Below the pieces are notes generated by a model. The model saw only the letters and a program-made list of their open reading frames with translations. It was not told where the DNA came from and searched no databases. From the NCBI GenBank assembly GCA_001896725.1, contig MPPA01000001.1:1-64000 (forward strand): a stretch of DNA of 64,000 nt, in the 5' to 3' direction. The translations under genes were made by a program, and so were the position numbers. Positions 73 to 15,160 of the stretch are shown piece after piece; the stretch's first letter is position 1; every line of letters begins with the position of its first letter. The stretch is from Methanococcoides sp. EBM-47. Lineage in GTDB: Archaea > Halobacteriota > Methanosarcinia > Methanosarcinales > Methanosarcinaceae.

Positions 73-725
73 ATGATACTGATTTTTAGAGGAATTCTAC
101 AGAGCCCAAATTTTGGAACATTATATGTTGCAAACGGAATTCAAGAAATACCTTATGTTTATTTTGATAAACACTTGTATCAGCCCCTATTGGTTAAAGA
201 TGAAAGTAATGAACCAAGATACAAGATTTTCCCTGATAACTTGAACACTGGCGAAAAGGAATTTCTTGAAAACTTGAAAAAATATGTTCAGTTAAATAAA
301 TCCAAATTCACAGCACAGCAACAGATGTTCATTCTGAGAAATCTTCCAAAAAAGGGTATTGGATTTTTTGTCGACACACTCAATTACTATCAAGAGTTCA
401 TCATTTGGATCAAAAACCCTACTAAACAGCACATTATATTGCAGATCCTAAGGGTTTGACAAAAATGTATGATGACGGTTTCAAGAATGAAAAAATTAAA
501 CTTCACGAACACATAAAAGAAATCGAGGTAATACTTGCAAAGAAATTAAAAGATAAAGGAGTTAAGCAGGAGATTAAGCTGGATTCTTACATCATATCTG
601 AAACAGCATTAAAGGATGTAAAATCAATTTTTCATACAAATTCACTTGATGAATACGCTAAACATCATATTGTATTCAATGAAGAGAAAGAAAAATACAT
701 TGGTAAATACTGGACGATAAATTAG
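73..725 (+). pseudogene. Type III restriction helicase-nuclease (Res-like), C-terminal remnant with frameshift
   Basis: Two abutting reading frames (73-459 and 456-725) together read like the C-terminus of Res-type restriction subunits. The order is a 'HLYQPLL' segment, a 'FILRNLPKKGIGFF' segment, the 'FIIWIK...KQHII' core of the C-terminal PD-(D/E)XK-like domain, then in the next frame 'ADPKGL', 'NEKIKLHEHIKEIE', 'LDSYIISET' and 'KHHIVFNEE'. The first frame runs off at about 440-459, exactly where the second supplies ADPKGL, so a single missing base there explains the break (an F codon reduced to two T's). Stops lie upstream of 73 in the same frame, so the helicase part is missing or in another frame beyond the window. 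The DNA is AT-rich. Family assignment is from remembered family patterns. A sequencing error at the frameshift cannot be excluded, but the upstream stops argue for decay. Confidence 0.7.
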
Positions 726-1219
726 TCTGATGATTTTACTAATTATAGATGTAGATACATCTTCTGCATCTTTATCCACCTCTACTGAGAATGAAGGCTT
801 AGTCAATATAAAAGCATATTAACACTGAGTTTGATATTTTTATTTTCAAATAAAAAATTGTTTTAATAAGTATAAAAATTACTTTATCGGAAAGAACCTT
901 TTGGCAGCTTGTGCTTTTCACCTAATATGCCAGTTATCTAAATTGGTCTTCAGCTAAGGAGAATTCTTGCCTGAAACTATTGATTTTACACCAGATATCT
1001 GCCATATTAATGACCAAATTTCATGAAATTAATATCATGTTCCAATCTACAATATATTCGATTTTTTGAGAAACGATAAAGTAATAGGCTATCATAGGCA
1101 AATACTCTTTTGACCAATGACGTATGAACAAAAACCATTAAACTTCTTTATGCCAGAAAAGTAATAAGCAATTTATTTAAAAAGATAGTTAAACCATAAC
1201 ACTACATAGCGTTTTTTGA
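726..1219. other. Intergenic AT-rich stretch without a convincing gene
   Basis: No long ORF and no RNA gene recognised. One tiny reading frame starts with TTG at 967 behind an AAGGAG site (956-961) and ends after 19 codons at a TGA. It may be the start of a decayed gene. The stretch separates the restriction remnant from the 3' end of tRNA-Gln, so it is a plausible scar zone of an island inserted at that tRNA, but I found no direct repeat of the tRNA 3' end inside the window. Confidence 0.5.
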
Positions 1220-1292
1220 TAGTCCTGGGCGGATTCGAACCACCGTCTTCGGCTCCAAAGGCCGAAAGGATTGACCTCTACCCTACAGGACT
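1220..1292 (-). tRNA. trnQ: tRNA-Gln (anticodon TTG)
   Basis: On the minus strand the acceptor arms AGTCCTG and CAGGACT pair over seven bases, with A as discriminator at 1220. The T arm carries GGTTCGAATCC. The anticodon stem TCGGC/GCCGA encloses the loop CTTTGGA, so the anticodon is TTG and the tRNA reads CAA as glutamine. CCA is not encoded and there is no intron. Its 3' end faces the AT-rich DNA that carries the restriction remnant. tRNA 3' ends are common integration targets. Confidence 0.95.
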
Positions 1293-1325
1293 ACTGTACC
1301 ATTAAGGTCGTACCGCGCAGGGTCG

Positions 1326-1332
1326 ATATATA
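1326..1332 (-). promoter_or_regulatory. TATA box of tRNA-Gln
   Basis: The minus strand reads GGTATATATCGAC centred about 37 bases upstream of the tRNA 5' end. With the usual archaeal spacing of about 25 bases from TATA box to start, transcription would begin near 1304, leaving a short 5' leader for RNase P to remove. The position also falls just past the 3' end of the DRG gene (1360). Confidence 0.55.
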
Positions 1333-1359
1333 CCTGCTGGTTCTTATGGTTATCGACTG

Positions 1360-2451
1360 TCATTTATTGATTATGAGCGTCACCAGGTCTTCATCCATGA
1401 GCACGTGGTCAAGACCTGCCCTTTGCCCGGGATGCTTGGCAGACCTGCCCCATATCTGAGAATATCTGAACTTCCTGCGGAAATCCCTGTGCAGTTTGTC
1501 ACAGATATCACCAACTGTGGTACCGCTTTGTACTATCATGGGCTCTTCAAGATCTGCGGGTCCTCCCTGAGGCTTTAGATATATCCTGATGAAATCCAGG
1601 GCATTGTAGATATTGTCCTGCACAACATGGAGGTTCAGACCCTTGTCAGCAGAGATGAACGCTGCATTCGGGAATCTCCGTTCTGCCGCTTCCAGGGTTG
1701 CAGGGTCGGCCAGATCGACCTTGTTCACTGCGATGATGGAGGGGATGTATACCCTGTTACCCATCACGACATCTATGAGCTGGTCCACGTTTATGTTCTC
1801 CCTGATGAGCACATGGGCATTATGGATCTTGTAATCGTTAAGTATGGCCTTGATAAGGTCTTCGTCCAGCTCCAGTTCCATCGTGGAGCTCACGATGACA
1901 CCGCCCCTGTCCTGCCTCTTGATCACTACATCAGGCGCTTTCTGGTCGAGCCTGATGCCTGCCTGATACAGTTCCTCTTTAAGGACGTCATAGTGCTGCA
2001 GCTGGAACACGTCCAGCATGAACAGGACAAGGTTGGCGTTCCTGACCACGGCTATGACCTCTTTTCCCCTGCCTCTGCCGCTTGCCGCACCCTTCACCAG
2101 TCCCGGCACGTCCAGGATCTGGATGGTGGCGCTCTTGTATTCCATGACCCCGGGAATGACGTCCAGGGTGGTGAACTCATATGCCCCCACCTCTGAATTG
2201 GCATCGGTGAGCTTGTTGAGCAGCGTGGACTTGCCCACTGAAGGGAAGCCCACCAGGGTAACAGTGGCATCACCCGATTTCTTTACAGAATAGCCTTCTC
2301 CTGAGGACTTGCTTGCAGCTCTCTTTACCACTTCGTCCCTAAGACGCGCAAGCTTAGCCTTCAGCTTGCCTATATGATGGGATGTGGCCTTGTTATATAC
2401 CGTGTTCTTTAACTCTTCCTCGACCTGTGCGATCTCCTCTTGTATGCTCAT
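1360..2451 (-). CDS. DRG-family GTP-binding protein (Obg superfamily, TGS domain)
   Basis: Developmentally-regulated-GTP-binding (Rbg/DRG) family GTPase, a ribosome-associated translational GTPase conserved in archaea and eukaryotes. The 363 residues match the family length. An N-terminal basic helical hairpin (1-50) is followed by the G domain with G1 GFPSVGKS (68-75), G2 region YEFTTLD, G3 DVPG (114-117) and G4 NKVD near 243. The C-terminal TGS domain covers about 290-363. A family-specific insertion splits the G domain after DVPGLVKGAASGRGRG. The start is the ATG at 2451 behind a weak AGGTCCGG site. It stands alone between tRNA-Gln and the accessory island, and its base composition is typical of the core genome, unlike the AT-rich DNA on both sides. 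Confidence 0.93.
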   Translation of the reverse strand: MSIQEEIAQVEEELKNTVYNKATSHHIGKLKAKLARLRDEVVKRAASKSSGEGYSVKKSGDATVTLVGFPSVGKSTLLNKLTDANSEVGAYEFTTLDVIPGVMEYKSATIQILDVPGLVKGAASGRGRGKEVIAVVRNANLVLFMLDVFQLQHYDVLKEELYQAGIRLDQKAPDVVIKRQDRGGVIVSSTMELELDEDLIKAILNDYKIHNAHVLIRENINVDQLIDVVMGNRVYIPSIIAVNKVDLADPATLEAAERRFPNAAFISADKGLNLHVVQDNIYNALDFIRIYLKPQGGPADLEEPMIVQSGTTVGDICDKLHRDFRRKFRYSQIWGRSAKHPGQRAGLDHVLMDEDLVTLIINK

Positions 2452-2730
2452 CCGGACCTGCCATATAATAAGAGTAAGATATGATTATACTTTTGCTGCA
2501 ATTGAGATTTTGGATCTGGTCACATGATGGCAATGTGAGTATAAAAAGACATTGTATAGGGGGAGGTGGGTGAAGGAAGGAAGGAACTGATTCAATGATA
2601 TTTATTTTGAGGCAACACCTTATTTTTAGCAAAGTATAGTGTACAAAGGAAATAAATATGTGCCATGTGATAAAACTGTACATAGATCTTAACAGAAAAT
2701 TACAGTTAATCATACAAGTATAGATGAAAG

Positions 2731-3408
2731 ATGATTATAATGCTATCAATTGAAGAAAATAAAAAAAGAAGAGAATTGTGGAGGCAAAAGTATACTGATG
2801 CACAAATTGCAGAAAAGTGTGGAGTATCAAGGGCTGCGATTTATAGTTGGAGAAAGAAATATAATTTAAAAAGCAACGGGAGAGGAAGAGGCAATTATCT
2901 GAATGAAAGCGAAGAGCTTTTGAGGCAGAATCTTTTTGAAAAAGGGCATACTGATGAAGAAATTGCAGATATATTAAATATTTCTACGATTACTGTGTTC
3001 AATTGGAGAATTAAAAATGGACTGTATAGGACTAGGCAAGGAAACGAGGAAAGGTATCAAGATTTAACTGATGAAGAAAGGGTATTTTATGAATATTTGA
3101 AAGATAAACATAATGACCTTAGAGAAACAACCTTGCTAGCTCTAGCAAAATTTGTAGAGCCAAGATCAGACCTGTCACCTGCTGCAAATTTACGACGATT
3201 TGCTAAAAAGATCAAAGCACCAGGTTTTAAAACAGTTTTCTATTTTGACGATGGAGAATTAAACTATATAAAAGAAGCAGTTGAACTTTTTGTACAAATA
3301 AATAAAAGGGATATTTCAAATTCTAGTAAGCAAAGATTAATAAATAGTATTCCAAATGAGTATTATTCATTAGTTTGTGAAGAGATGAATAGACAACTAA
3401 ACTTATAA
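2731..3408 (+). CDS. Double helix-turn-helix DNA-binding protein of the accessory island
   Basis: A 225-residue basic protein with two similar helix-turn-helix units. One is at about 14-47 (DAQIAEKCGVSRAAIYSWRKK), the other at about 63-98 (DEEIADILNISTITVFNWRIK). Both look like the homeodomain-like HTH found in transposases, recombinases and phage regulators. The C-terminal half (105-225) is helical and I do not recognise it. There is no transposase or integrase catalytic motif. The alternative start ATG 2740 removes three residues. The gene is AT-rich, runs toward the NurA-HerA operon on the opposite strand and ends 88 bases from it, so a regulator of that operon is possible but unproven. 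Confidence 0.7.
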   Translation: MIIMLSIEENKKRRELWRQKYTDAQIAEKCGVSRAAIYSWRKKYNLKSNGRGRGNYLNESEELLRQNLFEKGHTDEEIADILNISTITVFNWRIKNGLYRTRQGNEERYQDLTDEERVFYEYLKDKHNDLRETTLLALAKFVEPRSDLSPAANLRRFAKKIKAPGFKTVFYFDDGELNYIKEAVELFVQINKRDISNSSKQRLINSIPNEYYSLVCEEMNRQLNL

Positions 3409-3496
3409 AAAATAAAGATCAAACAGCACATCCCGATGCAATATTGAATACGTTTAATGGGTCTTTGGGCAAAATATAACCAATGAATAAGGAAAG

Positions 3497-4387
3497 TCAG
3501 CTGAAGAACAATATTTCACGTATGGATTGATCATATTCTACTTTAGAAAATAAGTGAACCGGATCGAATAAATAGATACTCTTACTAAAAGATATGGAAT
3601 TACAATAATCATAAACATCAGTTAGCTCTAAATAAGACAATTGTTTTTTTTCAAAAATTTTTAAGAATAAAAAAGACAACTTCTCTTTAGAGAGAAAACC
3701 ATCCATGCTGACATCAAGATAATATTTTTGCTTACCTAAACTATTATTATACAATCCTTTTGTTTTTTTGGGCAATGCATCAGTATGCCGATACAAATTG
3801 CTTACAGGGCTTTCATTTCTCTTTTCAGAATTTTGACCATAAAGATCTTCTTTCTTTAAACCTTTTAATACATCTAAAGATGAAAGTAAATCGTAGGAAG
3901 AGTCAGTAATTTCTTTCCAGATTTCTGTAGTTTTATCACTTTTTTTAAGATCCATTGGAGAATCTGCAGAAAAAGCCCGTGCAGAAATTAAGGATAAAAG
4001 TATTATCTTTTCTTTGTCACTTAGTGATTTTGTTGAGTCTTTAAATACATCAAAAAATTTATCGTCAATATATTGAATGAACATTTGAGGATTGAATACA
4101 TCTTTTTTTTGTTCAATCTCGAGGATTCCTTTAGCCGTTAAAACGTACCTATCAACTTCATCTGTCTCACGAATTAATCTTTCAATGAGCATCTGTTCAA
4201 ATATATCCTTAGGAACCTCTGACGAAAGGATTGAAGATTTGTTTAATAAAGAATGACGACTGTTAGACGTCATGTTTAAAAAAGAGATTAATATTGACTT
4301 CGGTATAATTTTTGTACTTGATCTTTCAATATTATCATATAAACGGGAGTAAAACTTATTTAGATAATAATCTCTAGTGCGGTCCAT
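3497..4387 (-). CDS. Last gene of NurA-HerA operon: predicted winged-helix protein, function unknown
   Basis: A 296-residue protein I do not recognise as a whole. Residues about 45-110 look like a winged helix: a helical stretch, 'FEQMLIERLIRE', then a short hairpin 'VDRYVLTAKGILEIE'. The middle is helical and polar (KSLSDKEKIILLSLISARAF). The tail 'LSFLFLKIFEKKQLSYLELTDVYDY' resembles a second small helical domain. No nuclease, signal or membrane motif is visible. The start is ATG 4387 behind GAGGATGTGA, 12 bases after the stop of the SMC-like gene, so the two are co-transcribed. In SMC/MukB-like complexes small winged-helix kleisin or KITE partners often accompany the ATPase. A similar role here is inference. 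Confidence 0.7.
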   Translation of the reverse strand: MDRTRDYYLNKFYSRLYDNIERSSTKIIPKSILISFLNMTSNSRHSLLNKSSILSSEVPKDIFEQMLIERLIRETDEVDRYVLTAKGILEIEQKKDVFNPQMFIQYIDDKFFDVFKDSTKSLSDKEKIILLSLISARAFSADSPMDLKKSDKTTEIWKEITDSSYDLLSSLDVLKGLKKEDLYGQNSEKRNESPVSNLYRHTDALPKKTKGLYNNSLGKQKYYLDVSMDGFLSKEKLSFLFLKIFEKKQLSYLELTDVYDYCNSISFSKSIYLFDPVHLFSKVEYDQSIREILFFS

Positions 4388-4399
4388 ATATTCACATCC

Positions 4400-6511
4400 T
4401 CAAAGATCCGTAATTACAACGTTGTTTAAATCTGTTTTTTGGACTAGCAAAGCAGAAAGTAATTTACCTTTATCTTTCAAAGACCTAATTTCAGAAATAA
4501 TAGGTTCTAAAGATGATGAATCCATCATTGCAATTTCATCAAATAAGGCAATAATTTTTCTATCATCCGAATTTTTTAATAGACTTAATATATAAGCGCT
4601 CTGACTTTGCCCAGTTCCCATATCTAAAAATTTAATTTTTTTTCCAGAAACTGTTAATACAACTTTGTCAATCAAGTCCACTTTTTCTACTTCATAAAAG
4701 CCATCAATATGTTTAATACTACCAAGTCTTTTTCCTAAATATTTAAAAACAGCATCATAGTATGTAGACTGTTCTGTTGTTAGAGAAGACTTATTTTTGA
4801 CTTTCCCATCGAGCACCTCTTTAATATAAGATTCATATTTAGTCTTGATTTTAGACTCTAGAGCAGATACCTGCGCATATAGCTCATTCAGTTCATCTAA
4901 ATTATTTTGATATTTATGAGTCTCTTTTTTTTCTAATCGTTCTATTTCAAATTTTAAGTTTTGACATCTTGACTCCGCTTTATTGAAATAAGCCTTTTTA
5001 GTTACGATTAAATCACCCAAATTCTTGATGTCAGCAATCAATTGATCTTCATCATGATTAGAATATTCACTTAAAACTCCTACTCCTAGATTACAAACTG
5101 AAACGGGATCAAAGTCTTCAAATTTATATAACTCTGATTCATAATATTTGATTTTTTCTAAAGCTTGACCTATACTCGTAGTAAGGTGGTCAATTTTTTG
5201 TTCTAAATCATCATAAATCTCATCTGAATCATTGTGAATTTGTTTGCTCAAGCTTAAGAATTTAGGTATAATTTGAGTTTGAAGATACTCTTGATTTTTC
5301 TCTAAATTGTTTAGTAGTATTAGAGTCTTTTCAATATTCTCTTTGAGAACAATTAGATGCTTATTTGAGTCGAGTTCTAATTTAAGCTCATTTATTAAGT
5401 CAGATGATGTGATATCAATGTTTTTTGTAGACACATTAAGTTTGTAGTGTTCCAAAATTTTAATTAATTCTTCATAGAAACGAATTTTCTGCAGAGAATC
5501 TTGATCATACTTTTCCCACATGACATTCATTTCAAATTTGAAATGAGTTATTTCATTTTTTAAACTTTCGTTAAATTCAAAATGCTCAAGAACTTGTTTT
5601 ACATCAATTCTTTGCCATATATTTAGATGATTTTTTTCAGATTCAGGGAGAAGATTTAGTAAAAGCCCCGTAACTCTGTTGAAATCAGAGTCCATCTCAA
5701 ATGTTTTATCAGATAAAATTTTCTTAAAAATCCTATATGTGTCATTTTGCTTTTTTTCAGTTCTGACAATTTTTTTTATTTGCTTTTGTAATCGTTCTAA
5801 ATCTGCTTGCAAACTCTCATGTAAATCGCAGTAGTAATTATAATACTTGTAATATGTTGCTCTTTTCAGCATATTCAGTTCTTCTTCAGAAAGAAGTATC
5901 TCCTGTCCTAGAATCTTTTTATCATTTTGTGTTTTTTCTAATTGGATATTATAATCTCTTAACTTATTTGGATCTTGAGAATTTCTAATAGCAGCAATTG
6001 TTTCGTGCAAATAGCCTTTAAAAAAGGAAACTTTGTTCCCATAAACTAATTGAGAATTTCTAATTTCTGCAGTGAGATTATTAAGACGATCTGTTGGATT
6101 CTCTGGAATGTCATAAATTAAACGATATTTACGAGTAAAAGTTTCATAACTAAGTGATTTTTTCATTCCATTTTCTAATTCATATACTTCTATTTCTGGA
6201 ACATCATGATTTAGTTTTTGTGAAATAACTTGCAGAGATTTATCCCCATTACTTATATTTATATTGAATTGCAATTTTTGATGATCGGAGTCATACAGAT
6301 TTAGCATCTTCCTTTTCAGAGATTGGGGAATACTATCATTTTTTAGCCCATATAAACCAATAGCTAATATGTGAAGAAGAGTGCTTTTTCCTACAGAATT
6401 AGGACCTTCGATGCGTACTAAATTGTTTAAAGTGGTTGGAATTTTATCAGGTGTGAATATCGTGTTTTCATCATGTTCATTTCTGATTATTTCATAGTTG
6501 TATTCTATCAT
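4400..6511 (-). CDS. SMC/Rad50-like coiled-coil ABC ATPase of NurA-HerA operon
   Basis: A 703-residue ATPase with the split ABC fold of Rad50/SMC proteins. Walker A is GPNSVGKST (36-44). A long charged coiled-coil region fills about 180-590. The C-terminal lobe has a degenerate signature (DMGTGQSQ, about 630-637 in place of LSGGQ), Walker B IIALFDEIAMMD (653-664) with the D-loop, and a Q in 'LLVQKTD' where the H-loop histidine is usual. It is shorter than Rad50 and no CxxC zinc hook is visible at the middle. The start ATG overlaps the stop of the 50-residue gene (ATGA) and has AGGTGG six bases upstream. It lies between the HerA-like gene and the winged-helix gene. Expected role: ATP-dependent DNA or DNA-end binding within a complex. 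It is not a standard Rad50 because no Mre11 is present. Confidence 0.85.
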   Translation of the reverse strand: MIEYNYEIIRNEHDENTIFTPDKIPTTLNNLVRIEGPNSVGKSTLLHILAIGLYGLKNDSIPQSLKRKMLNLYDSDHQKLQFNINISNGDKSLQVISQKLNHDVPEIEVYELENGMKKSLSYETFTRKYRLIYDIPENPTDRLNNLTAEIRNSQLVYGNKVSFFKGYLHETIAAIRNSQDPNKLRDYNIQLEKTQNDKKILGQEILLSEEELNMLKRATYYKYYNYYCDLHESLQADLERLQKQIKKIVRTEKKQNDTYRIFKKILSDKTFEMDSDFNRVTGLLLNLLPESEKNHLNIWQRIDVKQVLEHFEFNESLKNEITHFKFEMNVMWEKYDQDSLQKIRFYEELIKILEHYKLNVSTKNIDITSSDLINELKLELDSNKHLIVLKENIEKTLILLNNLEKNQEYLQTQIIPKFLSLSKQIHNDSDEIYDDLEQKIDHLTTSIGQALEKIKYYESELYKFEDFDPVSVCNLGVGVLSEYSNHDEDQLIADIKNLGDLIVTKKAYFNKAESRCQNLKFEIERLEKKETHKYQNNLDELNELYAQVSALESKIKTKYESYIKEVLDGKVKNKSSLTTEQSTYYDAVFKYLGKRLGSIKHIDGFYEVEKVDLIDKVVLTVSGKKIKFLDMGTGQSQSAYILSLLKNSDDRKIIALFDEIAMMDSSSLEPIISEIRSLKDKGKLLSALLVQKTDLNNVVITDL

Positions 6512-6660
6512 GCTATACCACCTGATTCATTCAATTGGAGGATTTCTTCTACAATTTCTTCATGCTTTTTTTCATTTAAAATAAACCTCATTAATTTTTT
6601 TTCTAGTTCATCACTTAAAATTGAATCAAATAGCTCCAAAATATCTGAATTAGATTCCAT
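6508..6660 (-). CDS. 50-residue acidic helical protein between HerA-like and SMC-like genes
   Basis: A short gene that fills the gap between two large ATPase genes. It starts at ATG 6660, one base after the HerA-like stop, with GAGGAG seven bases upstream inside the end of that gene. Its TGA overlaps the ATG of the SMC-like gene (ATGA). The product is highly charged and helical (MESNSDILELFDSILSDELE at the start, later KKHEEIVEEILQLNES) with no cysteines. The strong ribosome site and the two-sided coupling make it a real gene. Known parallels are the small middle components of ABC-ATPase conflict systems and small adaptor subunits of Rad50-like machines, but I see no sequence that proves a family. 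Confidence 0.75.
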   Translation of the reverse strand: MESNSDILELFDSILSDELEKKLMRFILNEKKHEEIVEEILQLNESGGIA

Positions 6661-6661
6661 A

Positions 6662-8227
6662 TTATGACTCCTCAAAGACCCCTGCAAAAGACAGAGGAAA
6701 TTTTAATATTTTTACTTGTGCTAAATCGTGTATAGAAACCGAAGCAAAACCTTTTTTTAAGCTTTCCATTTCTTCGGCAGTGATAGAGACATCGAATGAT
6801 TTTGCAACTTTTGGATCTGATTTGAAAAATATCGTGGAATTAATAACCGATGATAATCCTTTAGGTATATCTGTTGGATTTTGTGAAGAAAATATTACTC
6901 CAATTTCCTGGCTTCTTCCAGTTCTACAAATCGTATCTAAATCACCAAGTGCTTGATTAGAAGCATTTGTATTGTAAAATTGATGTACTTCATCAATTAT
7001 AATCAGAATGGGAACGGTAGATCTTTTTTCACTTTTTGAAGCAACTATTTTGCTCAACAGATGCCTCAAAATAATTGAACCAAATTGAATTCCATTTTTA
7101 CCTGCAACATCAATTACTGACATCTTACCTCTTGAAAGAATATCGTCTTCTGATAATGATATAGCATCAGTATTATCAAAAAAACTTGATGCCAAATTCA
7201 AATTGCGGAGCACATTATCAAATGTACCTCTATGCAGTTTTATTTCTGATTTATGGCCATTTTCAGTTAGTGTATCGAATGTGCAATCACTGTATATTCC
7301 TTTCTGGAAGTAATCTACGAAATTCCAAAAAGTGAAGTCGTCCAAATTGTTTTTTCTCACCTGCTGATCCTGCCAATGTCTAAAAATATTAGGCAAACTT
7401 TGGGCTCCAATATCTGATATCCCTTGTAATAGACCAGTTAAAGATTCTGGATCAATTTCTTTAACATCAAGTGTTATTTTTTGACAGTTTATAGGATTTA
7501 CTCCCTTTGTAGGACTAATAAAAGTGTTTGCTGGATAGTAAATCATAAAATTACTAATTCCATGAGGTTCTTTTTTTAGACTTTTCCATTCTTTTAAAAC
7601 CTGTGAACTTGTAGATTTGCTGGATTCATTCATTTTTAATAGATCAACATCTTTAACATTTATAGCTAAAACTGCTCCATTCAAATCTTCAACAAAGTAT
7701 TGGCTGAGGTATTTAATCGAAACTGTTTTCCCACTACCTGTTTTTCCACAAACTAAAGTTTGATGAAAAAACATATCTTTTGGTAATTTTACCTTAATAT
7801 AATCGCTATTTTCATCAATTAAAATTTGATTTTTGCCTGAATGAACTGTGGCTAAGAATACATCTGGACCCTCATTTATGCCCCCCAATGCAAGATCTAT
7901 TTCTTCTTGAGTAGACCTTCTTGCCAAAGATTGAGGCTTAATATAGTCAATTAAACCATCTTCTCTCTCATTTAAATCTTTTACACGATAAGCATTGATT
8001 ATATTTTGACATCTTTGATCTGGTACTAAAGACGACAAATCCATATCTATGATCATAGGTGAAGGAGAGTATGGTTCTGATTGACTACTTCCACTGACCC
8101 TTAAAATAAACTTGCTTTTTTTGTCTTCAACGGTGAGGTATGAACCTTTTGGCAATAAACCATCAACTTCACTTTTCGAAACAAGCTGAATATTTCCACT
8201 TTTTTCACCTAATACAATCCATCCCAA
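6662..8227 (-). CDS. HerA-like hexameric DNA translocase ATPase (FtsK-HerA superfamily)
   Basis: A 521-residue HerA/DUF87-type ATPase. An N-terminal beta-rich region (1-110) corresponds to the HAS barrel of HerA. The ATPase core has Walker A GKTGSGKT (161-168), Walker B ILIIIDEVH (407-415), a polar sensor FSSQNP (446-451) and 'CRTGRSQEIG' (434-443), a likely arginine-finger segment. HerA works as a ring that pumps double-stranded DNA and activates NurA nuclease. Here the NurA-like gene lies directly upstream and ends four bases before this start. The start codon is TTG at 8227, with GGTGA four bases upstream; no in-frame ATG lies close by. The AT-rich coding and the linkage to an SMC-like gene rather than mre11-rad50 set it apart from the housekeeping herA. 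Confidence 0.88.
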   Translation of the reverse strand: MGWIVLGEKSGNIQLVSKSEVDGLLPKGSYLTVEDKKSKFILRVSGSSQSEPYSPSPMIIDMDLSSLVPDQRCQNIINAYRVKDLNEREDGLIDYIKPQSLARRSTQEEIDLALGGINEGPDVFLATVHSGKNQILIDENSDYIKVKLPKDMFFHQTLVCGKTGSGKTVSIKYLSQYFVEDLNGAVLAINVKDVDLLKMNESSKSTSSQVLKEWKSLKKEPHGISNFMIYYPANTFISPTKGVNPINCQKITLDVKEIDPESLTGLLQGISDIGAQSLPNIFRHWQDQQVRKNNLDDFTFWNFVDYFQKGIYSDCTFDTLTENGHKSEIKLHRGTFDNVLRNLNLASSFFDNTDAISLSEDDILSRGKMSVIDVAGKNGIQFGSIILRHLLSKIVASKSEKRSTVPILIIIDEVHQFYNTNASNQALGDLDTICRTGRSQEIGVIFSSQNPTDIPKGLSSVINSTIFFKSDPKVAKSFDVSITAEEMESLKKGFASVSIHDLAQVKILKFPLSFAGVFEES

Positions 8228-8231
8228 AATA

Positions 8232-9242
8232 TCACCAAAACCGTTCTTGATTTATAGTAGGAACAATACCAGAATTTTGCATCATAGAGTCTATATCGAC
8301 CAGCGTTAAAGCTTGTCTAGCATACATCTCAGCAATCGCAATTAATCTCACTTGGGGATTTTTCATATTCCCCTGAACTAATAATAAATAATAAACTAGA
8401 TCCAATAAATTTTTTACTTTTCTTTCATTTCGAGTAAAAGTATCCTCATGCATTTCAACTCGTTGAGGACTAGAGTTAAAGGGTTTCAAATAGCAGAAGA
8501 TTTTTGCCCTTCCACTAGTACTATCGAAATATCTAAAAAAACTAGACCTTTCACCCACTTTCAATGTACTAAAAGCCCAATGCAAATCAGAATTGTATTT
8601 ATTTTCAAGAGCAGGAACGTAACTAATAACTAAGTTACTTGCACTATTTTTAACAAAAAATAAAGGGATAATATTTTTTTCTAAGAGCTCTTCATTTAAT
8701 GTAACAGAGGATGAACTTACTTGCCCACCAATAAGAGGGCCATCGATTAATAGTAAAGAATTTGCAGGTACATTTTCTAACAAGAAAATGTTCCTGTCAG
8801 AAATATAGTCTTTCTTAGAATCAGTGTCCTGATCGATTGAATACTTAATGAAGTCATTGCCTTCTATGTATTTTTTTGCTCTTGTATAGAAATTAAATGT
8901 AAGAAGAATTTGAGGGATGTATTCCATTTGATCCTGCACTATAAGGGAATGAGAAATTGAAACTGCTGTACCTTCTAATGAAGAAAATTTCTTTAAAGAC
9001 TCATCATAAGCACAAAATAAGGAATTTTGCTTCGAAATAAATTCACCATTCTTAGGGTTTAACTTGTACCCTTTTATTTCTTCCATGTTTTGAACCACAT
9101 CACCATTTGGAGGAAATACATAAGCAGAAAAATCCATTTCTGAGTCTGAAAAGTCAGGGGGTAATCTAACTCCTATATTTTTTAGATTTTCAATTGTTTC
9201 TCTAAAATTCTTATGCAAAATAATTTTATTAGCAATAGTCAT
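8232..9242 (-). CDS. NurA-like nuclease, first gene of the operon
   Basis: A divergent NurA-domain protein of 336 residues. The family landmarks can be followed in order: an acidic strand 'LFCAYDESLKKF...LEGTAVS' with D80 (the NurA 'VDGS' site), 'LLLIDGPLIGGQ' with D167, 'IIPLFFVKNS' with K198, 'SDLHWAFSTLKVGERSSFF' with D219 and GERS, 'RVEMHEDTF', and a C-terminal helix 'RLIAIAEMYARQAL'. NurA cuts single- and double-stranded DNA with manganese and is driven by HerA. The start is ATG 9242 with GGGGT seven bases upstream. It is followed by the HerA-like gene, as in thermophile herA-nurA pairs. The identity rests on motif order, not on a search, so the assignment is good but not certain. Confidence 0.78.
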   Translation of the reverse strand: MTIANKIILHKNFRETIENLKNIGVRLPPDFSDSEMDFSAYVFPPNGDVVQNMEEIKGYKLNPKNGEFISKQNSLFCAYDESLKKFSSLEGTAVSISHSLIVQDQMEYIPQILLTFNFYTRAKKYIEGNDFIKYSIDQDTDSKKDYISDRNIFLLENVPANSLLLIDGPLIGGQVSSSSVTLNEELLEKNIIPLFFVKNSASNLVISYVPALENKYNSDLHWAFSTLKVGERSSFFRYFDSTSGRAKIFCYLKPFNSSPQRVEMHEDTFTRNERKVKNLLDLVYYLLLVQGNMKNPQVRLIAIAEMYARQALTLVDIDSMMQNSGIVPTINQERFW

Positions 9243-9279
9243 TGAATTTACCCCATATGAGTAATAATAAAATAGTTGA

Positions 9280-9297
9280 AAATATATAAATAAATTA
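9280..9297 (-). promoter_or_regulatory. Probable TATA region of the NurA-HerA-SMC operon
   Basis: The minus strand reads TTATTTATATATTTTC about 40-55 bases before the NurA-like ATG. A start site 25 bases downstream would leave a leader of about 20 bases containing the GGGGT ribosome site. The surrounding DNA is so AT-rich that the exact box is uncertain. No inverted repeat that would mark an operator stands out. Confidence 0.4.
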
Positions 9298-9419
9298 TGA
9301 TCGTTTAGAAAAATGGTTGTCCATATTATTTTTTAAAAATAGTTACATCTGAAACCCTAGGAAACATTATTTCAATAAAGTTTTAAGATTACAAGTGTCT
9401 TAACGACATGAAAGCTACT

Positions 9420-9974
9420 CTAATATTTTTTGAGCCTATTCATTGTTTTTTGAGCTATTGAAACTTTATTAAGTAAATAATTCAATTTTTCTTCTTTGCT
9501 TTGCCATTTATCATAGTTTTGAGCTGAATTTTCAGATAAACATGGTCTTTTGATACAGTCTATTTTATTAGGAATATGTTTTTTCTGTAGATGAAATATA
9601 ATTAGTTGCCTCATATTATTTTGCTTATCAAAGCCATCTTTTAGATGATAACCTATGAAAATCATTTCTCCACAATATTGTATATAACCACCACTCAATT
9701 TATTAAATAAGTGTAGAGATTTACCATTAGATAGATGCTCTTTTATTGCCTTATTCCCTCTATTAAACTTCATATCTCCAACCTGACCTTCGCCTGTATA
9801 ATAAAATATATCATCTTCCTTCCAACCATCCTCATAACCATACTCTTTTCCTGAATCACCTGTAAATAAAAAGATCATATCCGATTTTCGGGAAGGAGAG
9901 ATACCACCTTGGCGGTTACCACCATATAAATCATGAAGCTCACTTCTTTTGTAGATTTGGCCTTTTATAAACAT
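9420..9974 (-). CDS. Solo ScoMcrA-like SRA domain protein (modified-DNA reader) without HNH nuclease
   Basis: A 184-residue protein that matches, from memory, the SRA-type domain in front of HNH endonucleases of the ScoMcrA type. Landmarks are 'YKRSELHDLYGGNRQGGISPS' up to the S at 28, 'IFLFTGDSGKEYGYEDGW' (34-51), 'FYYTGEGQVGDMKFNRGNKA' (57-76) and 'QLIIFHLQKK' (123-132). In the full enzymes this domain binds methylated DNA and a C-terminal HNH domain cuts it. Here the protein ends in a helical linker-like tail (160-184), and the 178 bases downstream contain no CxxC or HH motif of an HNH domain. It is either a truncated type IV enzyme or a genuine stand-alone reader. It points the same way as the NurA-HerA operon, 178 bases upstream of it, and has the same AT-rich composition. 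Confidence 0.75.
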   Translation of the reverse strand: MFIKGQIYKRSELHDLYGGNRQGGISPSRKSDMIFLFTGDSGKEYGYEDGWKEDDIFYYTGEGQVGDMKFNRGNKAIKEHLSNGKSLHLFNKLSGGYIQYCGEMIFIGYHLKDGFDKQNNMRQLIIFHLQKKHIPNKIDCIKRPCLSENSAQNYDKWQSKEEKLNYLLNKVSIAQKTMNRLKKY

Positions 9975-10115
9975 TTATGATCATGTTAAATAGTTTTAGA
10001 TTTTACTTAAATGCACTGATCTCTAACAGATTTATAAAAAACATTACAACCCTCTTCCCATCTCGCCATACTAATATATATTTACAGCTATTTATTACCT
10101 GTAGGAGAGTTCATC

Positions 10116-11411
10116 ATGAGAGTATCAGTTATCGGTACCGGTTATGTTGGCTCGGTAAGTGCTGCATGTTTTGCAGAACTGGGCCATGAAGCGATCTGTG
10201 TGGACGTGGATGAGAGGAAGGTGAGCATGATCAATGCCGGCAAGGCCCCTATCTGGGAAGAAGGGCTGGAAGAGCTGCTGGAAGAGTATGCCGGGAAACG
10301 TATCATAGCCACATCGGACTATGACCTTGCAGTGCAGAGGTCGGACGTGTCCTTTATCTGCGTGGGCACGCCCTCCGATGAGAAGGGCAATATCGACCTA
10401 TCCATAGTGAGATCGGCAGCCATGAGCCTGGGAGAGGCCATGGCGAAGAAGGACCATTATCATGTGGTCGTTGTGAAGAGCACCGTAGTGCCAGAGACAA
10501 CAGAGAAGCTCGTTATACCGTTGCTTGAAAAACATTCCGGGAAAAAGGCCGGCAAGGACTTCGGTGTTGCCATGAACCCCGAGTTCCTCAGGGAAGGCAA
10601 AGCGGTGTACGATTTTATGCACCCGGACAAGATCGTTGTGGGAGCCATCGATGAAAGGACGTTCTTCATGGTATCCGAGCTGTATCGAGGTCTTGACTGC
10701 CAGGTGACACACACCCGGCCCACCACCGCAGAGATGATCAAATATGCCAACAACACCCTGCTGGCCACCAAGGTCTCCTTTGCCAACGAGATAGGCAACA
10801 TCTGTAAAAAGATGGGTATAGACACGTATGCCGTTATGAAGGAAGTGGGCAAGGACTTCAGGATATCGCCCCATTTCCTCAATTCCGGGGCAGGGTTCGG
10901 AGGCTCCTGTTTCCCCAAGGATGTGCGGGCCATCATTGGCAAAGCGGAAGAACTTGGCTATGAACCTAAACTGCTGCGCTCGGTCATCGACATCAATGAA
11001 AAACAGCCCCTTGGCATGGTCCGGCTGCTCGAACAGAAGACAGGAGAACTACAGGGTAAGTGCATCACTGTACTTGGCCTGGCCTTCAAGAACGATACAG
11101 ATGACATCCGGGAATCCCGCTCCATTCCAGTCATTGAGGAGCTCCTGCGCAAGAAGGCCCTGGTGACCGCATACGATCCCATGGCAACTGAGCACATGAA
11201 GAAGGTCTTCCCTAATATCACCTACTGTGACAGCGCAGCCGAAGCTCTTCAGGATGCCGATGCCTGCCTGCTCATGACCGAATGGGACCAGTTCCGCAGG
11301 CTGGACAAGGAATTCGCTACAATGAAAAGGCCACTGGTCATCGACGGCAGGCATCTCCTTGACCCAAAGGACCTGTCCGTGAAGATCGAATATGAAGGGC
11401 TATGCTGGTGA
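10116..11411 (+). CDS. ugd: UDP-glucose 6-dehydrogenase
   Basis: NAD-dependent oxidation of UDP-glucose to UDP-glucuronate, a sugar donor for surface polysaccharide and protein N-glycans. The 431 residues show the Rossmann motif GTGYVGSVSAACFAE (7-21), 'FICVGTPSDEKG' (80-91), substrate-site 'AEMIKYANNTLLATKVSFAN' (205-224) and the catalytic cysteine in GGSCFPKD (C265). The start is ATG 10116 with AGGAGAG 7-13 bases upstream. This is the first core-like gene after the AT-rich island. The next gene overlaps or abuts it. UDP-N-acetyl-mannosamine or related sugar dehydrogenases share the fold, so the exact sugar is likely but not fixed by the sequence. Confidence 0.9.
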   Translation: MRVSVIGTGYVGSVSAACFAELGHEAICVDVDERKVSMINAGKAPIWEEGLEELLEEYAGKRIIATSDYDLAVQRSDVSFICVGTPSDEKGNIDLSIVRSAAMSLGEAMAKKDHYHVVVVKSTVVPETTEKLVIPLLEKHSGKKAGKDFGVAMNPEFLREGKAVYDFMHPDKIVVGAIDERTFFMVSELYRGLDCQVTHTRPTTAEMIKYANNTLLATKVSFANEIGNICKKMGIDTYAVMKEVGKDFRISPHFLNSGAGFGGSCFPKDVRAIIGKAEELGYEPKLLRSVIDINEKQPLGMVRLLEQKTGELQGKCITVLGLAFKNDTDDIRESRSIPVIEELLRKKALVTAYDPMATEHMKKVFPNITYCDSAAEALQDADACLLMTEWDQFRRLDKEFATMKRPLVIDGRHLLDPKDLSVKIEYEGLCW

Positions 11412-11418
11412 ACTGGGC

Positions 11419-12069
11419 ATGCCGACCGAAGAAAGGGCCCGGGACGATCTGCATGGCAGGATCAATTCCTTTGACCAGAACCTCAGAAGCCTGGAGCGCA
11501 GGCTCAGGGCAGTGGAACGCCGGCTTTCCATGGAAGTACCTCCACAGGACCTCATGGAAGACCCTGCACCTCTGCAGACCGACATCCTCCAACAAATGCG
11601 CGCGGAACTCTCAGAGCTGCGGGAACAGATAAGCTCTCTTGACGATAAAGCCTCCGATCCCCGAGTGAACGAGATCGACAGCCTGAAACAGCAACTGGCA
11701 GAACTGCAAGATCATATCCAGAGGCTCAACGAGATGCACCAGCAGACAAAGCATGAGCTGCTGAACGGCAAAGCAGATGATAGCATACTGGCACTTACCC
11801 AAAACATGAAGGACCAGTTCGAGGACATAGAAAAACGGCTAAAAAAAGCGGAAGAGAAGAACAGGATCACCATAGGCTCTGTCAAAGTGCCTGTGGAGTT
11901 GTCAGGAGTTGTGGCAGCAGCCCTTATATTCTTTACAGGCGTGCTCATCATGGGCGACAGGTGGGATATTATCAGGTCCCCTTATTTCTCGTTCTCCATT
12001 GCACTGGTACTGGCAGGCGCTGCCCTGCTGAGGTTCTATATGGCAAATAAGGAAACTGGGATGGGATAA
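11419..12069 (+). CDS. Coiled-coil protein with two C-terminal membrane segments
   Basis: An unrecognised protein of about 216 residues. A long heptad-rich region (about 15-150, with 'LRSLERRLRAVERRL' and 'EIDSLKQQLAELQDHIQRL') is followed by two hydrophobic helices near the C-terminus ('VELSGVVAAALIFFTGVLIM' and 'FSIALVLAGAALLRFYMA'). It is therefore a tail-anchored membrane protein with a cytoplasmic or external coil. The start ATG 11419 was preferred because GGTGA lies seven bases upstream. ATG 11392 would overlap ugd by 20 bases. Coupling to ugd suggests co-expression. No catalytic motif is visible, so no function is assigned. Confidence 0.75.
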   Translation: MPTEERARDDLHGRINSFDQNLRSLERRLRAVERRLSMEVPPQDLMEDPAPLQTDILQQMRAELSELREQISSLDDKASDPRVNEIDSLKQQLAELQDHIQRLNEMHQQTKHELLNGKADDSILALTQNMKDQFEDIEKRLKKAEEKNRITIGSVKVPVELSGVVAAALIFFTGVLIMGDRWDIIRSPYFSFSIALVLAGAALLRFYMANKETGMG

Positions 12070-12090
12070 AGAAGAAAGGACAGGAAGTGA

Positions 12091-12537
12091 TCAGATGGTC
12101 CTGACCTTGATAAGATACTGCTCATCCAGGTCCAGATACCCGTTCTGCATCACTTTCACGGCAATATACCCTTCATTTTTTCCTGTGGGCAATGACATGT
12201 GCTCCAGCCTGAAAACAAACTCCCCGAAAGCATCGGTGGTACCTGCCTTAGCTGTCCTGTGATCGGGGGCCCAGACCACCACACTTGCCCCTGGCACTGG
12301 TTCATCCTCTGAATTGATCACTGTAAGTCGAATATAAGGAGAATCATCAATGCTGCCATTGATAGAAAAAGAAGTGGTATTGGACAGCACGAACAGCACA
12401 CCAGGTGTGGTCTGCACGCCTGCAAGGGCAGCCAGCATCACTGCCATGCCTGCCATACCCACGATGGTCAGCACCACCATCCTGATGGGAAGGCCTATTG
12501 CAGCCTCCTCATCCCTGAAAAAACATCTGTTCTCCAT
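12091..12537 (-). CDS. Pilin-like surface protein with Ig-like domain (paralogue A)
   Basis: A 148-residue protein with a short charged N-terminus ending in DEEAAIGLPI, a hydrophobic helix (VVLTIVGMAGMAVMLAALAG), then an extracellular beta-rich region. The region 'PYIRLTVINSEDEPVPGASV' to 'GEFVFRLEHM' has the layout of a carboxypeptidase-regulatory/Ig-like fold. The N-terminus resembles archaeal type IV pilin leaders, in which cleavage precedes the hydrophobic helix, but a clean signature is missing. It is followed upstream by a paralogue with the same architecture (12571-13071) on the same strand, 33 bases away. The two share the layout 'pilin leader, helix, one beta domain, RT-I/V end'. Role in surface structures is inference. 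Confidence 0.7.
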   Translation of the reverse strand: MENRCFFRDEEAAIGLPIRMVVLTIVGMAGMAVMLAALAGVQTTPGVLFVLSNTTSFSINGSIDDSPYIRLTVINSEDEPVPGASVVVWAPDHRTAKAGTTDAFGEFVFRLEHMSLPTGKNEGYIAVKVMQNGYLDLDEQYLIKVRTI

Positions 12538-12570
12538 AGTATTTACAAAATCCAGTGGTCGAAAAGATGT

Positions 12571-13071
12571 TCATACAGTTCTGACTATCAGCACAGCATC
12601 TTCCTTTTCATAGTCGTAGAATCCATTGGCAGAGATGGTAAGGTCCATTGTACCTTCGTTCTGGTTAGGACCCATTGTTACCATTGCCGGGTCGGTGGTG
12701 AGCACAGCCCTGCCATCGCTGCCAGTGGTGGCAGTAGCGACCCCGCCAAGCCCTCTTAGTACCACACTGGCATCTCTTACAGGATTACCATCGGTGTCCG
12801 TAGCTGAAAGGGTTACCCTCACATAGAAGGGGTTCTGTGCTATGGCCGAGTTCACTATAACTGCATTGCCATCGGTCATGATTATGTCAGTAGTACTCGA
12901 TGCACCTGCACTGTCGATATATACAGACATGTTCTTAGTGGGTGGAGGAATGATAGCTACAAGGGCTGCAAGCGCCACCATTCCTACAACGAGCATTACA
13001 ACAATGTTAATAGGCAGTTCCATAGCATCATCGCTGTGGAACGAAATCGCAGTGTTCTTTTTGTTTTTCAT
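12571..13071 (-). CDS. Pilin-like surface protein with Ig-like domain (paralogue B)
   Basis: The paralogue of the downstream gene. The leader 'FHSDDAMELPINIVVMLVVG' runs into a hydrophobic helix (VGMVALAALVAII), then a threonine/alanine-rich extracellular region with 'FYVRVTLSATDTDGNPVRDA', 'SVVLRGLGGVATATTGSDG' and the ending 'DAVLIVRTV'. The domain 'VRDASVVLRG...TGSDGRAVL' is a regulatory-type beta sandwich. The ATG at 13071 is preferred over GTG 13080 because GGTGA sits five bases before it and overlaps the GTG. This gene probably leads a two-gene transcript. A TATA-like stretch lies in the AT-rich DNA at about 13100-13140. Confidence 0.7.
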   Translation of the reverse strand: MKNKKNTAISFHSDDAMELPINIVVMLVVGMVALAALVAIIPPPTKNMSVYIDSAGASSTTDIIMTDGNAVIVNSAIAQNPFYVRVTLSATDTDGNPVRDASVVLRGLGGVATATTGSDGRAVLTTDPAMVTMGPNQNEGTMDLTISANGFYDYEKEDAVLIVRTV

Positions 13072-13213
13072 GGTTGTCACCAGATTGGTTCATGTTAAAA
13101 AAGAATACAAAGTATATAAGTTCTACTATATTATTGAAAAATTAAAAACCTGGAACAATGCTGATCCGCGAGATTCGCAAAATTGATGTATAAAGAACAA
13201 GCTCTAATTCCCG

Positions 13214-13822
13214 ATGAAAGATATCGTGATCATAGACTATGGAATTGGCAACCTGCGCAGTGTATATAAAGGGCTTGAACACACAGGTGCCTCAGTTTCC
13301 ATCACCGGTGACCCGGAAAAGATACTTGCAGCAGATGGGGTCATCCTGCCTGGGGTAGGTGCTTTTGCAGATGCCATGAAGAACATCGAAGACCTCAAAG
13401 GCGTCCTTGCAGAATGCGCAGATTCCGGTAAGCCTATGTTAGGTATTTGTCTGGGAGAGCAGATACTTATGGACCGCTCCGAAGAAGGCAGACCGACCAG
13501 CGGCCTGGGGCTTATACATGGTAACGTCCTCAGATTTCCCCCTTCCAGGCTCAAAATACCTCACATAGGATGGAACTCCATACAGATCACACAGGAGCAT
13601 CCCCTGCTTGTGGATATTCCCGATGGGTCCTATGTTTATTTTGTGCATTCCTACTATGTGGACACCACACAGGAGAACATACTGGCAGCATGCGAATATG
13701 GAGTGACCTTTGCAGCTGCAGTGGTCAATGGTCCCGGAAATGTCATGGGCACACAGTTCCATCCTGAAAAAAGTGGGGATATTGGTCTGAAGATATTACA
13801 CAATTTTGTAAAGATGTGTTGA
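13214..13822 (+). CDS. hisH: Imidazole glycerol phosphate synthase, glutaminase subunit HisH
   Basis: Class I glutamine amidotransferase that feeds ammonia to HisF in histidine biosynthesis. The 202 residues match the family. The nucleophile is C79 in GICLGEQ, and the His-Glu pair is H183/E185 in FHPEKSG. The N-terminal 'IIDYGIGNLRSVYKGLEHTG' is diagnostic for HisH. No Shine-Dalgarno site is visible before ATG 13214; a TATA-like GTATAAAG about 24 bases upstream suggests a leaderless or nearly leaderless message. HisF is not adjacent. The next gene starts ten bases downstream, so the two are likely co-transcribed. Confidence 0.95.
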   Translation: MKDIVIIDYGIGNLRSVYKGLEHTGASVSITGDPEKILAADGVILPGVGAFADAMKNIEDLKGVLAECADSGKPMLGICLGEQILMDRSEEGRPTSGLGLIHGNVLRFPPSRLKIPHIGWNSIQITQEHPLLVDIPDGSYVYFVHSYYVDTTQENILAACEYGVTFAAAVVNGPGNVMGTQFHPEKSGDIGLKILHNFVKMC

Positions 13823-13831
13823 GGCAAGAAC

Positions 13832-15160
13832 ATGGATATCGAAGGATATGCAAAAAGAGGGCTGCGTGCCAATGATCCTGAACTTGAGGATAAGCTCACT
13901 GCCAGGATCCTTGAGATAAAGAAGACCACACCCCAGCATGCCCGCAGGCTTGCACAGTTAAGTATCGTGGAGGCCAGGAACACGTTAAATGTGAAGGGTG
14001 ACATACTGGAACCTACCATATCCGGTGTCACTATGGGCGAGTTCGGTGTGGGCTCGAGGGGTACTGGTGATTTTTACACGCATGAGAAGATAGCAGAGGT
14101 CATAGGAAAAACAGAAGCAGTAGTGGACAGTGCGCAGCTTGATGACTCCGGTGTGGTACTGGCCAATGGCACCGATAGGTACATCATCGTCACCATTGAC
14201 GGCATACACTCAAGACTTAGTGATTTCCCATTCCTTGCAGGTTTCCATGTGGCAAGGGCATCTCTTAGGGACGTGTATGTGATGGGTGCACGACCTGTTG
14301 CTCTGCTCTCGGATATACATGTAGCTGATGATGGAGATGTGGCAAAGATATTCGATCATATTGCAGGTATCACTACAGTATCCGAACTTACAGGCATTCC
14401 CCTTATCACGGGCAGCACTCTGCGCATAGGTGGGGATATGGTCATCGGGGAACGCATGACGGGAGGTGTAGGTGCGGTAGGTACCACTTCGGACCTGACA
14501 GCCCGCAATCAGGCGTGTGCAGGTGATGTGGTCCTCATGACCGAGGGTGCAGGTGGAGGGACTGTTTCCACCACGGCTCTCTACTACAATATGCACCATG
14601 TAGTGCAGAAGACCATGAACGTGAAGTTCCTGAAGGCATGTGAAGCCCTTATCGATTCAGGACTGCTGCCACATATCCATGCCATGACCGATGTCACCAA
14701 CGGCGGTATTCGAGGAGATGCGAAAGAAATATCAAAGACCGCAGGTGTGAAACTTATATTCGATGAGGAGAGGATGAGAGCGCTGGTCGATCCAGTGGTA
14801 CTTGAAATGCTCGAATCCCTCAAGATAGATTATCTGGGTGTCTCGCTTGATGCTCTGCTCATCATAGCCCCGCATGAGTATGCCCGGGACATCATGCGTG
14901 TTGTGAAAGAATCGGATGTTGCCATAGATATCGTAGGCCGGGTGGAGAATGGAGCAGGTGCAGAGATAAAGATAGAGGGTGAGATAAGGAACTTCACATC
15001 CCGTTTCAGGGAGTCCGCATACACCCCGGTTAAAAAGATGGTAGGGGAAGAGGAGCCCCGGGACTTCCTTGAAATGAAGCGTGCTATCGATATTGCGGCA
15101 GAGAACGCCATTAGGAAAAAGCACAGAGTAGTGGAAATGATAAAAAGAGGTCAATTTTAA
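13832..15160 (+). CDS. AIR synthase-related (PurM/HypE/SelD-fold) protein
   Basis: A 442-residue member of the ATP-using PurM/HypE/ThiL fold. The N-terminal AIRS domain contains 'FGVGSRGTGDFYTHEKIAEV' and an acidic ATP-site segment 'VDSAQLDDSGVV', then 'YIIVTIDGIHSRLSDFPFLA' with the metal-binding D and H. The C-terminal AIRS_C domain follows ('GDVVLMTEGAGGGTVSTTAL', 'HAMTDVTNGGIRGDAKEI'). A helical extension of about 70 residues is present at the N-terminus and a basic tail at the C-terminus. Such AIR-synthase-like proteins are widespread in methanogens but their substrate is not known to me. It is not PurM itself. It starts with GAGGC upstream, ten bases after hisH. Confidence 0.8.
   Translation: MDIEGYAKRGLRANDPELEDKLTARILEIKKTTPQHARRLAQLSIVEARNTLNVKGDILEPTISGVTMGEFGVGSRGTGDFYTHEKIAEVIGKTEAVVDSAQLDDSGVVLANGTDRYIIVTIDGIHSRLSDFPFLAGFHVARASLRDVYVMGARPVALLSDIHVADDGDVAKIFDHIAGITTVSELTGIPLITGSTLRIGGDMVIGERMTGGVGAVGTTSDLTARNQACAGDVVLMTEGAGGGTVSTTALYYNMHHVVQKTMNVKFLKACEALIDSGLLPHIHAMTDVTNGGIRGDAKEISKTAGVKLIFDEERMRALVDPVVLEMLESLKIDYLGVSLDALLIIAPHEYARDIMRVVKESDVAIDIVGRVENGAGAEIKIEGEIRNFTSRFRESAYTPVKKMVGEEEPRDFLEMKRAIDIAAENAIRKKHRVVEMIKRGQF

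Follow-up and report, generated by a model that had tools for sequence, protein, structure and literature searches.

A mobile NurA-HerA-SMC gene cassette in Methanococcoides sp. EBM-47 and its relatives is probably a modification-coupled system against foreign DNA

In Methanococcoides sp. EBM-47 (GenBank assembly GCA_001896725.1), a NurA-family nuclease, a HerA-family translocase and an SMC/Rad50-like ATPase are encoded side by side with two further proteins, which raises the question of whether such a set belongs to the ordinary repair machinery of this archaeon or to a defence against foreign DNA. HerA hexamers move double-stranded DNA into NurA, ATPases of the SMC/Rad50 kind clamp DNA or bridge it, and HerA-NurA and Rad50 are known as end-resection parts in archaeal repair. 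A preliminary description had read the five genes as a mobile anti-phage or anti-plasmid machine that senses DNA ends or structures. Herein, the locus was analysed in a stretch of 64,000 nucleotides (contig MPPA01000001.1, positions 1 to 64,000 of the forward strand, termed the window), where the following features were located; the genes for the HTH and SRA-like proteins (2731-3408, plus strand, and 9420-9974, minus strand) were not part of that description.

2559..9934, no strand: inserted segment of 7.4 kb with the cassette and the HTH and SRA-like genes; empty site in the same-genus genome G177
2731..3408, plus strand: HTH protein, 225 aa, on the insertion; Pfam HTH_23 1.1e-13
3497..4387, minus strand: helical protein of 296 aa in which two winged-helix-like units are predicted; model pLDDT 85.7
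4400..6511, minus strand: SMC/Rad50-like ABC ATPase of 703 aa with coiled-coil arms and a variant signature, GTGQS
6508..6660, minus strand: small acidic helical protein between HerA and SMC, 50 aa from ATG
6662..8227, minus strand: HerA-family hexameric DNA translocase, 521 aa, TTG start; Pfam HerA_C and DUF87
8232..9242, minus strand: NurA-family nuclease, 336 aa; Pfam NurA 2.1e-8
9420..9974, minus strand: stand-alone SRA-like domain of the ScoMcrA type, 184 aa; phmmer to ScoMcrA 5zmn 6e-5 and 5zmm 1.3e-4

The five cassette genes, all on the minus strand, follow one another from NurA to the winged-helix-like gene with gaps of 4, 1, -4 and 12 bases, and the region from 3 to 10 kb has a GC content of 28-33% against mostly 40-53% beyond 10 kb, so that the tight one-strand arrangement and the AT-rich island described earlier were both borne out. 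The motifs named at that time were likewise each located, namely GKTGSGKT and IIIDEVH in HerA, GPNSVGKST and FDEIAMMD in the SMC-like protein, and YDES at D80 and IDGP at D167 in NurA. The two NurA aspartates occupy invariant columns across 15 homologues, 14 of which independently match Pfam NurA, while a NurA profile gave zero matches against the PDB. HerA, whose homologues are 46-69% identical, is matched by its Pfam families at 1.5e-9 and 7.5e-9, and its profile reaches the solved HerA structure 4d2i at 1.2e-10. With the HerA Walker motifs and the NurA acidic catalytic residues in place, the two proteins are predicted to form a HerA-NurA pair. The 50-residue protein proved to be a genuine gene, for which an alternative start is possible at 6687; its homologue lies between HerA and SMC in all 13 complete cassettes and overlaps the SMC start in locus L021. 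A weak match of this protein (6508-6660) to the antiphage GapS6a family was also observed (NCBIfam 0.006, below the cut-off).

The predicted model of the SMC-like protein (pLDDT 81.5) was matched by Foldseek to Rad50 (2.8e-11), MukB (9.3e-10) and LmuB (2.1e-6), with Smc5/6 also among the best solved-structure matches, which supports the assignment of this protein (4400-6511) to the SMC proteins. The CxxC zinc hook is absent from it, and its three cysteines are isolated (0-based indices 227, 472 and 515). The fifth gene was correctly called in the preliminary description, but its winged-helix fold is weakly supported: Pfam and further family searches placed it in no sequence family, and the fold matches of its model were all non-significant and mostly to MarR-type winged helices. 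As a guess from the model, it may be a KITE/kleisin-like partner of the SMC protein.

Could these genes simply constitute the repair set of the organism? The Pfam and fold matches, together with the known roles of HerA-NurA and Rad50 in end resection, would suit an accessory repair or recombination set that performs ordinary end resection. The same genome, however, already carries Mre11 and Rad50 as an operon on contig C44, along with another NurA-HerA pair on C40 and one more HerA on C33, which indicates that the cassette adds to the repair set rather than being the repair set itself. A housekeeping locus encodes HerA and NurA together with Mre11 and Rad50, and at the cassette locus Mre11 is absent. 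The second pair (L016 3681-5039 and 4984-6852; G000:C40) is very different, consists of overlapping genes and lies among metabolic genes; hhalign of the cassette NurA against this other NurA of the genome aligned only the IDGP and VKN motifs, without significance, and for the C40 HerA the top-scoring NCBIfam models are those of anti-phage HerA, with scores far under the cut-offs. Relative to the archaeal HerA-NurA/Mre11-Rad50 end-resection machinery, the cassette shares a HerA translocase, a NurA nuclease and an SMC/Rad50-like ATPase, whereas it is devoid of Mre11 and the zinc hook, adds the small and winged-helix-like proteins, is mobile and is linked to methyltransferases. It is also patchy, being present in 8 of 186 Methanosarcinales genomes, and a repair function of the cassette is consequently considered very improbable.

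The mobility claimed in the preliminary description was corroborated by an empty site. In G177, a genome of the same genus, the flanks corresponding to window positions 1216-2558 and 9935-15144 lie about 125 bp apart, from which it follows that 2559-9934 is a single inserted (or lost) segment; the cassette was thus gained or lost as a unit. The SRA-like ORF reaches into the conserved flank with its first 40 bp, outside the inserted segment. A homologue of the HTH protein adjoins the cassette in L010 only (L010:9901-10563, 42% identity). Near the start of the window, a 128-aa ORF at 73-459, between the contig edge and a tRNA-Gln gene, resembles the C-terminal portion of a type III restriction enzyme (PADLOC 5.5e-7) and is unmatched in the compared region of G177.

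The order of NurA, HerA, the protein of about 50 residues, the SMC-like protein and the winged-helix-like protein was found in 13 complete loci and in 3 truncated ones, which come from Methanosarcinales, Candidatus Methanoperedens, Methanosuratincola, Pacearchaeota, Thermoplasmata, one Neomarinimicrobiota MAG and one IMG/VR contig, where binning errors are possible in single MAGs but hardly in all. The IMG/VR contig was the single one recovered from that resource, by several queries, and in its copy the methyltransferase is adjoined by a phage head-morphogenesis gene. Relatives of NurA and HerA were both absent from the plasmid collection and a HerA relative was absent from the phage collection; a weak NurA match in G217 contains four stops and is not accompanied by a cassette. 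The genes around the relatives include McrBC, a restriction endonuclease, HepT/MNT, an integrase and transposases, and an archaeal phage integrase lies near the cassette of G295 (L010 12069-12797). In two relatives the SMC gene is interrupted, by a transposase-like ORF (L017 7299-8444) and by an IS630-like ORF (L025 5021-6145), which leaves the cassettes broken. The preliminary description had held that a defence reading would fail if the order were confined to one genus or if these were the ordinary repair genes; the order extends over several archaeal phyla and a bacterial MAG, with defence and mobile genes nearby, and the separate housekeeping genes exist.

Among the cassette proteins, conservation is highest in HerA (mean column identity 61%) and lowest in the SMC-like and winged-helix-like proteins (36-38%). 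The pairwise distances of these three correlate at r=0.92-0.95, which indicates that they evolve as a unit; the divergence of the winged-helix-like protein tracks that of the SMC protein closely (r=0.95), and NurA correlates with the three at r=0.69-0.73.

What the preliminary description missed is a DNA methyltransferase gene, which in 11 of the 13 complete loci is separated from the cassette by -24 to 129 bp. It may stand upstream or downstream, in co-directional, convergent or divergent orientation, and this varied placement suggests repeated recruitment. Ten of the eleven belong to one family (44-74% identity), the exception being a distant D12 relative in L024, while in L022 a D12 gene is found 3.1 kb off. 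The closest solved structure to the ten-member family is M.CbeI, PDB 7m6b (profile E 6e-121; phmmer 3.8e-95), and full-length homology and an invariant DPPY motif place the ten in the M.CbeI family. M.CbeI, an N4-cytosine methyltransferase of the alpha class, shields GGCC from CbeI (PMC3425538), and it does so by N4-cytosine methylation (PMC3425538; PMC8616854). Judged by this homology, the mark of the partner methyltransferases is predicted to be N4-methylcytosine in GGCC.

Across the 186 Methanosarcinales genomes, the M.CbeI family (counted at E<1e-100 with a profile that included the five carrier sequences) occurs in 5 of 8 cassette carriers and in none of the 178 others (Fisher p=3e-8), and all five genes adjoin the cassette. 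The next best genome scored 4.5e-69 against 4.6e-130, which shows that the gap is no effect of the cut-off. D12 methyltransferases at E ~1e-60 in G497, G472, G090 and G456 were set aside, none being near a cassette. Two Methanosarcinaceae genera share a conserved gene pair, free of the cassette, that encodes an AAA/RecF-like ATPase with a D12 methyltransferase (L067 6393-9039 and L068 8560-11162). The methyltransferases of PF01555 that adjoin L017 and L018, and the one in L022, were not scored as partners, because that of L017 is fragmented, the pooled neighbours include a match to an MvaI/BcnI endonuclease and some of these methyltransferases may serve other systems.

The conservation of the cassette as a unit, its mobility, its separation from the repair genes and its linkage to methyltransferases are directly supported, and an adjacent DNA methyltransferase in nearly all relatives argues for modification-coupled restriction rather than for a sensor of free DNA ends. 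The cassette is therefore probably a horizontally moving, restriction-type system against foreign DNA that is coupled to modification, as far as can be judged from gene content and homology. The earlier anti-phage or anti-plasmid reading accordingly stands in its mobile, recurrent, repair-independent and defence-associated aspects, and needs amending with respect to the methyltransferase. We infer how self-marking, target recognition, assembly and degradation might proceed. In most relatives the partner methyltransferase, usually of the M.CbeI family, would protect the host DNA, and the SMC-like ATPase would load onto unmarked incoming DNA, aided by the winged-helix-like protein as its putative DNA-binding partner and by the 50-residue protein as a possible linker or regulator. 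The SMC part would then pass the unmarked DNA to the HerA hexamer, which would pump it into the NurA nuclease and so bring about processive degradation.

A methylation-blind defence that senses structures or ends through its SMC protein, in the style of Wadjet or Lamassu, would require the methyltransferase to adjoin merely by the clustering of defence genes. It draws on the resemblance of the SMC protein to LmuB, which PADLOC recognised at 4.7e-12 in the window copy and in 7 of 12 homologues and which the fold comparison also returned, but Rad50 and MukB outscore LmuB by fold. Methyltransferase divergence, moreover, is weakly coupled to the cassette (r=0.34-0.47): between L010 and L021 the methyltransferases are 73% identical while HerA and the winged-helix-like protein are 49% and 17% identical, a mismatch suggesting that the methyltransferase was swapped or recruited more than once. 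The window copy also persists without a partner methyltransferase. On the other hand, the methyltransferase is the sole recurrent neighbour and mostly of one family at 11 of 13 loci, whereas chance clustering would yield mixed partners, and PADLOC recognised neither the LmuA effector and LmuC among the window genes scanned nor the JetA kleisin, JetB and the JetD TOPRIM nuclease at the locus. In Lamassu (LmuA-LmuB-LmuC), too, a nuclease is coupled to an SMC-like ATPase, which is similar in size and fold, yet the nuclease of the cassette is NurA with a HerA motor and a methyltransferase partner is present. Wadjet (JetABCD) and MukBEF share an SMC ATPase, a nuclease and a winged-helix-like partner (the MukE and JetB fold matches are very weak and non-significant), yet the cassette has HerA-NurA and a much shorter SMC protein, and a kleisin and JetD were not found. 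Methylation-blind sensing is thus regarded as unlikely.

The window copy is the exception to the modification-coupled reading. The linked cognate methyltransferase present for 11 of 13 complete cassettes is absent from it, and in family-by-family searches of its genome the M.CbeI family was absent and PF01555 and PF00145 were without match. The sole D12 match is a short stretch in a DUF1156 protein beside an SNF2-type helicase on C22, so that none of the three methyltransferase families searched offered a plausible partner, in an assembly of 53 contigs whose contig here starts at window position 1 and in which a gap could hide a partner gene. The helicase, which carries NOV_C, and the 955-aa DUF1156 protein with a methyltransferase-like motif (L045, G000:C22:119000-129000, at 634-4200 and 4246-7113) probably form a separate defence system. 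GGCC is not depleted in the DNA of the organism (152 observed against 150.5 expected). With a partner methyltransferase undetected in the genome, the window copy, if active, must spare self in some other way: it may be protected by another means, be silent, or act on modified DNA instead by way of the SRA-like gene.

The last of these would make the window copy type IV-like and modification-dependent, the SRA-like protein, a possible reader of modified cytosine, recruiting SMC-HerA-NurA so that self-methylation is unneeded. The SRA-like gene shares the insertion with the cassette, its product matches the ScoMcrA SRA domain, and methyltransferases of PF01555 and PF00145 are absent from the genome. 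Nevertheless, this arrangement is known from a single locus, clashes with the targeting of unmodified DNA in relatives, and the SRA-like gene may instead be a truncated HNH endonuclease or a passenger independent of the cassette; plasmid relatives of the protein carry HNH or AAA annotations. We regard this alternative as quite improbable.

The set is undescribed in the open-licence papers searched (preprints excluded) on NurA, HerA, SMC, defence and methyltransferases, and the cassette is most likely a new variant of modification-linked defence. The Dnd/Pbe modules (DndFGH, PbeABCD) restrict DNA without the host mark through ATP-dependent complexes of several subunits, among them HerA/FtsK-type parts. 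By analogy, the nearest parallels to the logic of the cassette would be these modules, or a type II system in which an ATP-driven machine has taken the place of the endonuclease. In contrast with Dnd/Pbe, its mark is a predicted base methylation, its nuclease, SMC and winged-helix components differ, and the Dnd modification genes are absent. The type II CbeI/M.CbeI system shares the methyltransferase family (GGCC, N4-cytosine), but CbeI is a single, simple HaeIII-like endonuclease, in place of which a five-gene ATPase-nuclease cassette is found here. The SIR2-HerA and DUF4297-HerA anti-phage systems likewise combine HerA with an effector enzyme, whereas the effector of the cassette is NurA and an SMC protein, a winged-helix-like protein, a small protein and a methyltransferase are added. 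The signature sets of MADS (mad1-8) and BREX (BrxC, PglZ, PglX) were not found, with weak partial matches to mad8, mad1 and BrxF only.

More tentatively, the cassettes may represent a new multi-subunit restriction class, in which an SMC/Rad50-like protein and its winged-helix partner, rather than a type I/III helicase or a type II endonuclease, would check the N4-cytosine methylation of GGCC and drive HerA-NurA on unmarked DNA, some copies such as that of the window having exchanged the methyltransferase for an SRA reader. The window copy, being without a methyltransferase, offers a natural test of self-sparing. If the modification-coupled reading is true, an end-resection machinery of HerA-NurA and an SMC ATPase has been converted to a methylation-aware defence complex, in which SMC DNA sensing, HerA translocation and restriction-modification, usually studied apart, are united. 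It would also furnish a defined target-site prediction (GGCC, N4-methylcytosine) that is testable in the genetically tractable Methanosarcina, and may explain archaeal transformation barriers.
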